64,000 nt of DNA from Chromatiales bacterium. GTDB taxonomy: Bacteria > Pseudomonadota > Gammaproteobacteria > SpSt-1174. Of the stretch, positions 58,928 to 61,395 are shown piece by piece. Under the pieces are notes generated by a model. It did no database searches, had not been told where the DNA came from, and saw nothing but the letters and a program-made list of their open reading frames with translations. Within the stretch, counting starts at the first letter, position 1. Each line of letters opens with the position of its first letter. The DNA is taken from positions 1-64,000 of the forward strand of contig JABURS010000030.1 of NCBI GenBank assembly GCA_014762505.1. The letters are read 5' to 3'. The position numbers were made by a program, and so were the translations under genes.

Positions 58928-59174
58928 GCGCCCATCTTCCCCATATCGCGCGGCCACGCAAGTCCTCGCGGCGTCGATGGGTGTCTGTTGGGCGGTTATG
59001 GTGTGTGCCAGATCCAGCTTTCGATGGCGAAATTGATCTACATTAGTGTGGAGTGGTGAAAAAAGGCCAATGATAAGACAATGGAAACCACTCGATTTCC
59101 GCAAATGAATGCCGGTATGTCCCGGCGGACGTCCGTCCGCTTCCATGCCGGTCTGCCAAAGGTGATATGAAGCC

Positions 59175-61322
59175 ATGAATACACATTTTCTGCGCAAGCC
59201 CCTTGCGCTTCTTTCGGGTGCCGTTCTGCTGGCAGGGATGCTGACGGCATGCGACGAAGGGGGCTCGTCGGGTACCACCACGACCAGCGACGTGCCGATT
59301 TCTGCAAAGGTACTGGACAGCGCGGCCTCCTTCCTCGGGGCGGCGACCGGAAAGGAATCCCCGCTGATCGTCGATGACGTGGTGTTCATCAACTCCGCGC
59401 TGGGTCTGAACGACGTCCCGCGCGATGCACTCGATCTCTATGGCGACCTGTGGGTCGTGGTGCGCGATGCCTACGGCGTGCCGGAGTTCGATGCCAACGG
59501 CTGTGTTTAGCCGGTCGCCTCCGAACCGGTGGTCTGGCCGGATGGCAGCACGCAGGACACCGTGCCCATGATGCTCGAGGAGTTCATGGACGGTGAGCTC
59601 AAGTGCACGCCGGTGGAGGGTTACGAGGAATTCACCGTGGAGCTGGAGATCGGCCGGCTGAACATGGTGCGCACCATGTCCACCAATCCGACGGTCTTTG
59701 CCCGCGCCCTGCAGGAGGCGATCAAGAACATCAATGCCGCCAGCGAGGTGAAGACCGATGCGGCCGGGCGCCTGGTGCTGGTGACCGAGGTGGATGGGCT
59801 GCCGGTCGAGAAGACCATCGACTCGCCGCGCGAGAACCTCGCGATGTACTACGCCCTGCTGAAGCAAGGCCGTATCGCCGGCTATGGCCCGGAGAGCCGG
59901 GGCGAGGAGGGCGAGGTGATTCCGCCGCAGTGGCTGGAGATCCGACCCGACCTGGACCTGGGCGCGCTCGCCTACCTGCGAGATGGCACCTTCGGTCGCG
60001 AGGGCGGCGTGAACCTCTACAAGGGTTACGCCGACCTGTCCGTCATGACGCACAATCGCCAGGAGGACTACCAGACCCAGCTGGTCAGCTATGTCCAGTA
60101 CGCCGACGATGGTTCGGGCTGTTTCTACCGGGACATGGAAGACTACGTCTGGCCGCGCGTATTCGGTGAAGAGGCCTACTATGGCGAGAACATCGCCGGC
60201 TTCACCCAGCATGCCGACGATACACGCGCGACGATCGTCTTCATGCACAACGTGATCCAGGACGTGCCAGAGACGATGCTGGCCACGCTGCCCGTGATCG
60301 ATGACGGGGTGAATCCCCCGTATGGCCGCCTGGACCTGATGGAGGCCGCCGCCGCGTTCATCGGTGCCGCGTCCAACAAGGGTGTGCCGCTGACCGTGGA
60401 CGGGCTGGTGTTCGTCAACACCGTGCTGGGCCTGAACGAGGTGGACTTCTCCTACAAGGGCGAGATCTATGGCGACCTGTGGGAACTGCTGCGCAACGAC
60501 AATGGCGAGCCGGTCCTGGACGCCAACAGCTGCCCGCAGCCGATTTCGTCCGATCCCGTGGCGACCGGTGGCGACTACGTGCCCATGGAGCTGGACGACC
60601 AGGGCGAGTGCGTCATCGTGGCAGGCTACGAGGACTATGTCATCGAGCTCGAACTGGGGCGTCTGAACGGCGTGCGCGTCGCGCTCACCAACCCGGCCAT
60701 GCTCGATCGCGCCCTCTACGACGTGGTCAACAGCATCAACGCCTCGACGGGCGTGAAGCTCGACCTGGCCGGCCGCCTGGCCTTTGGCGTGGACGAAGAC
60801 AGCGATGGCGATGCCGACCGTTACCAGACCGTCGACTCCCCGCGTGCCAACCTGGCGATGTACAACGCACTCATGCGCTGGGGCAAGCTGGAAGGCACGG
60901 TCGAGATCATGGAAGACGGCACCTGGGTGACCAAGACTATCCAGATCACGCTGGATGATGCGGTGCTGGATGAAGAAGGCCTTGGTTACCTGAAGCGTGG
61001 CGATGCGGGTTGCGAGCTCGACCCCGCGAACTGCGGCGCCCTGCGCCTGCCGAGCGGCTATGTCGATTACTCGGCCTTTGCGCACAACGCCCAGGAGGAC
61101 TTCCAGGGTGTCGACGTGAGCTACGTCGAGCGTACCCCGGATGATCCGAGCTGCAGCTATGCGGACAGGACCAGCGCCCTGTGGGAACGCGTGCTGGAAA
61201 GCGACGCGGCGGACTATGCCAACATCGCCGGCTTCGTGGCGCAGGCCGAGGATACGCGCAGCATCATCCAGTTCCTGCATACCGTGATTCAGGACCCGGT
61301 CACCGAACCGGCACCTGAATAA
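59175..61322 (+). pseudogene. Duplicated-domain lipoprotein gene interrupted by an in-frame TAG
   Basis: One 716-codon frame has an amber codon at 59508-59510 (codon 112). The N-terminus is a lipoprotein signal (LLAGMLTACDEGG). Two long repeats follow, starting LDSAASFLGAATGKESPLIV and MEAAAAFIGAASNKGVPLTV. Just before the stop the first repeat reads DANGCV-stop-PVASEPV and the second DANSCP-Gln-PISSDPV, so TAG aligns with a CAG Gln codon. The part after TAG lacks its own ribosome binding site. This looks like a single C-to-T change, an error, or a readthrough codon. The family is unknown to me; surface exposure is likely from the lipobox. Confidence 0.78.
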
Positions 61323-61364
61323 ACGCGCAACGCGGTATGTGGCAACGCATACCCGGCTAGACAG

Positions 61365-61395
61365 AAACCCCGCCCCGGCGGGGTTTCTTTTTTTG
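61365..61395 (+). terminator. Terminator after the duplicated lipoprotein
   Basis: GAAACCCCGC (61365-61374) and GCGGGGTTTC (61379-61388) form a perfect ten-pair stem with a four-base loop and are followed by seven T. The intact terminator suggests the interrupted gene is, or was recently, transcribed as one unit. Confidence 0.92.

Follow-up and report, generated by a model that had tools for sequence, protein, structure and literature searches.

An amber codon at an ancestral glutamine position of a duplicated lipoprotein gene in a Chromatiales bacterium: probably a recent nonsense mutation

In-frame stops and the window gene

A lone UAG inside a conserved reading frame is what the interrupted lipoprotein gene described here has in common with cases of amber suppression or UAG recoding, which depend on a suppressor tRNA or involve pyrrolysine. 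The gene lies in the window, i.e. the whole stretch of 64,000 nucleotides of Chromatiales bacterium DNA that was analysed (assembly GCA_014762505.1, contig JABURS010000030.1, positions 1 to 64,000, forward strand), and differs from those cases in that its genome possesses release factor RF1, employs TAG as an ordinary terminator and yielded no tRNA with a CTA anticodon, and in that every full-length orthologue has a sense codon at the site. According to the text of Belinky et al. (2021; PMC7918605), in-frame stops are widespread in bacteria and mostly short-lived. The nonsense pseudogenes of which that text treats resemble the window gene in having one stop within an intact frame still under purifying selection, and the example of its Figure 1, as the text describes it, is a TAG/CAG pair, as in the window gene. 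Compared with the stop polymorphisms discussed there, the window's amber codon has been seen in one genome only.

The interrupted frame and the ancestral codon

The frame begins at an ATG (59175) and ends at a TAA (61322), with TAG at 59508-59510 as its sole internal stop. Its parts are as follows.

59158..59165, + strand: putative ribosome binding site, purine-rich, 5' of the ATG (from sequence only)
59175..61322, + strand: internally duplicated lipoprotein gene (two repeats) of 714 sense codons, interrupted by a single TAG and closed by TAA
59175..59510, + strand: signal peptide and lipobox-bearing product expected without readthrough, 111 amino acids (from sequence)
59241..59252, + strand: lipobox Leu-Thr-Ala-Cys, residues 23-26 (from sequence)
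59313..60293, + strand: repeat 1, approximate bounds (repeat comparison)
59427..59882, + strand: domain conserved across a broad, uncharacterised family (alignment A3 and its structure model)
59508..59510, + strand: in-frame amber TAG, codon 112, glutamine in relatives
60333..61298, + strand: repeat 2, approximate bounds (repeat comparison)
60537..60539, + strand: CAG (Gln455), repeat-2 counterpart of the amber site, glutamine in 12 of 12 sequences
61363..61388, + strand: terminator-like hairpin of 11 pairs followed by T6

The earlier note had described an amber codon at a glutamine position of a duplicated lipoprotein, in a frame otherwise open for 716 codons and closed by a good terminator. 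The description is borne out: the frame 59175-61322 has 716 codons if the amber and the final TAA are counted, and a terminator-like hairpin follows it. The sense frame 3' of the amber comprises 603 codons and is homologous throughout to 11 full-length orthologues (62-67% identity), which align across the entire gene, and so the interrupted frame is judged to exceed chance expectation. The GC content of third codon positions resembles that of coding sequence before the amber (0.74) as well as after it (0.87 and 0.84), and the cysteine of the lipobox is invariant in the nine rows of alignment A2. The two repeats share 45% identity as proteins and about 65% as DNA, and the internal control that the note had drawn from them is correct, with DANGCV-TAG-PVASEPV in the first and DANSCP-CAG-PISSDPV in the second.

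At the amber site, glutamine is present in each of the 11 full-length orthologues, which come from Marinobacter and Alcanivorax (CAG in eight, CAA in three), and at the counterpart site in repeat 2 glutamine is found in the window gene as well as in these 11. The same column of alignment A3, which represents the wide domain family with rows drawn from loci L103-L182 and L194-L196, has glutamine in 79 of 94 rows, the remainder being Ile (7), Val (4), Lys, Thr and Asn (1 each) and a gap (1). A separate family-wide count gave glutamine in 97 of 109 reads, or 81 of 93 once the 16 reads from duplicate loci (L186-L193 repeat L103-L110) are subtracted. Because glutamine is conserved across the orthologues, repeat 2 and the family, the sense codon is ancestral and the amber derived, one substitution away from CAG; 18 of the 19 glutamine codons in the focal frame are CAG. 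There are no stops inside 103 family domains, the domain model ending just short of the position at which the orthologue of Marinobacter koreensis is interrupted (see below).

Constraint, distribution and decoding

In the part of the gene after the stop, comparison of the window sequence with the 11 orthologues gave pN of 0.22-0.24 and pS of 0.62-0.70, versus 0.166 and 0.718 for the same part in the uninterrupted pair L103-L106; synonymous change is near saturation, and pN/pS therefore shows only a mostly constrained history with no long neutral decay. The ratio of post-stop to pre-stop dN is about 1.6 in comparison with L103 and about 2.2 in the control pair L103-L106; there is no excess of nonsynonymous change after the amber, and no further stop breaks the frame. 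Since constraint after the stop is much like that of uninterrupted orthologues, the amber mutation appears to be young, without a long decay after it, although the same constraint fits a very young null and a gene still made by readthrough alike. The absence of decay on either side of the stop that the earlier note had reported thus holds for codon-position GC and for constraint, and the comparison with orthologues that it had proposed supports the recent C-to-T change that it had offered as one explanation, with glutamine ancestral and the frame otherwise intact.

No relative was found when genome contigs were scanned with the single protein as query. The same scan with an alignment as query (a profile scan) confirmed 162 loci, and the best 80 of these, which were kept, include eight close orthologues (seven from Marinobacter, one from Alcanivorax). 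In the Marinobacter group, the genus of locus L103, the gene is present in 10 of 124 genomes, seven of them also reached by the profile scan and two or three adding further orthologues. Of the 11 full-length orthologues, 10 run through as one frame with no interruption. An even sample of the class gave matches, mostly distant, in 8 of 369 genomes, and among three genomes of the window's order there was a strong match in one, its own. By these counts the gene appears to be patchy and accessory, with many strains doing without it. In a protein tree the window gene groups with the Alcanivorax copy (support 0.999). The genes next to the Marinobacter and Alcanivorax copies, of which nine were surveyed at four of the eight loci, vary (carbohydrate kinase, patatin, RES, phosphoribosyltransferase and others) and consequently offer no operon hint to function.

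The eleventh orthologue, from M. koreensis DSM 17924, has a lone TAG of its own (L109:4685-4687), farther along the gene than the amber of the window, after which its frame is open to the end; the other sequences have Tyr (nine, the window's included) or Phe (two) at that position. Two of the 12 full-length sequences are therefore interrupted, at different sites, and the independent TAG of M. koreensis suggests that loss of the gene recurs. That both interruptions are TAG carries little weight, because 116 of the 146 stop-prone codons in the window's GC-rich frame are able to become TAG.

Reassignment of UAG in the window's genome is ruled out by an intact RF1 gene (prfA; full-length, 564.7 bits, no stops inside) and by TAG as the terminator of 10 of 45 window ORFs, these having been picked by a codon-position heuristic. 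The genome has 45 tRNA matches, 43 of them above the family cut-off; ARAGORN typed all 43 and assigned a CTA anticodon to none, and the two weak matches yield no tRNA. A pattern of CTA loop plus T arm matched at three sites, one of which is a tRNA-Arg(tct) and two of which are no tRNA. The tRNA-Leu labelled 'tag' carries the anticodon UAG and reads CUA codons; it does not suppress amber. The set of tRNAs found may fall short of the full complement, tRNA-Leu(TAA), tRNA-Ile(GAT) and tRNA-Ala(TGC) being missing among the 43, probably as gaps in the draft. The window's genome holds two tRNA-Ser(TGA) genes that differ from each other. All 46 tRNAs of M. koreensis were typed as well, and none has CTA. 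The window was also scanned for further genes with a same-frame interruption; the scan discriminated poorly, returning 18 pairs, the lipoprotein gene among them, most of which look like adjoining genes or like shadow frames that accompany real genes.

Origin of the amber codon

The amber codon is attributed, with a probability of roughly 0.7, to a nonsense mutation of recent date in an accessory lipoprotein gene that looks functional but is dispensable. The change is most likely an inactivating mutation of a kind common in bacterial genomes and not a new reading of the code. A single base change would have converted CAG to TAG at codon 112 of an intact, constrained frame; ribosomes would then halt at the UAG with RF1 and release a product of 111 residues, without the second repeat and with very little of the first domain, and the gene would by now be either a newly formed pseudogene or a null allele that segregates within the species. 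Such a loss would be tolerated because the gene is accessory. The event would be an ordinary one, yet well documented: the orthologues and the internal repeat establish what the ancestral codon was, and another lineage bears an independent amber in the same gene.

An error of sequencing or assembly, in a genome that actually encodes glutamine, would likewise leave the remainder of the gene intact and constrained around a conserved glutamine, but is rather unlikely: the change is a substitution and not a homopolymer indel, the typical error of some platforms; the completeness of the genome, in 43 contigs, is rated at 100% and its contamination at 0.27%; and the M. koreensis orthologue has the same kind of interruption, although none of these points tests the base itself.

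It is unlikely that a near-cognate tRNA, or a suppressor that escaped detection, reads the amber at a useful level and lets a little full-length lipoprotein be made. Such readthrough would account for the full constraint after the amber and for a second orthologue with a lone TAG and an open frame behind it; both interrupted sequences have TAG and nothing else, as such a model would give, and the base following the window's amber is C, which after a stop is a weak terminator context in E. coli. Belinky et al. (PMC7918605) also argue, in the text of their study, that many bacterial in-frame stops are tolerated or read through. Against this, CTA is absent from the 43 tRNAs of a possibly incomplete list and from the 46 of M. 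koreensis, the three pattern matches came to nothing, RF1 is intact, and the amber is unshared, with glutamine at the site in all 11 orthologues. The suppressed readthrough that the earlier note had offered is thus weakened by the missing CTA tRNA and the presence of RF1, and keeps a small share of probability. If it were shown to occur, the gene would lend itself as a natural test of the yield of full-length protein across an unsuppressed UAG.

It is very doubtful that the family is prone to recurrent amber mutations whose low-output, revertible and weakly read-through alleles, here and in M. koreensis, would tune down an exported lipoprotein. It is highly improbable that the gene makes both a short lipoprotein and, by restart downstream of the amber, another protein: an in-frame ATG lies at 59586 with GAGGAG three bases before it, but the spacing is short, GAGGAG codes for Glu-Glu inside the domain, the downstream product would have no signal peptide, and all but one of the full-length orthologues are one uninterrupted frame. 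A frameshift or bypass is ruled out by the same frame going on and aligning on both sides of the amber, and a shared programmed stop by the finding of a stop at the site in none of the 11 full-length orthologues.

Protein family and fold

The window protein is predicted from its sequence to be exported and probably membrane-anchored, and the prediction of function goes no further. Searches of Pfam, NCBIfam and PADLOC returned no family for it, no Pfam model matched any of the 10 scanned members of alignment A1, and a sequence search for relatives in the PDB found none, its lone match (E 0.37) being taken as chance. The structure model of the full-length protein is poor (mean pLDDT 43.9), whereas that of the domain is confident (mean pLDDT 86.4) and places the amber at residue 28 of 152, directly before a strand at 29-36. 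Foldseek found no PDB match to the domain model at E 0.001 or better, and the best match by VIA-align (Z 3.6 over 66 residues) is taken as no evidence. The motif of the wide domain family in alignment A3, GDL..LRD..G.P.....G..QP ... GRLN ... IDSP..NLA.Y, occurs in members that are mostly from Proteobacteria. In one genus of the class (L006, L007 and L008), the domain is found as two adjacent paralogous genes and not as an internal repeat.
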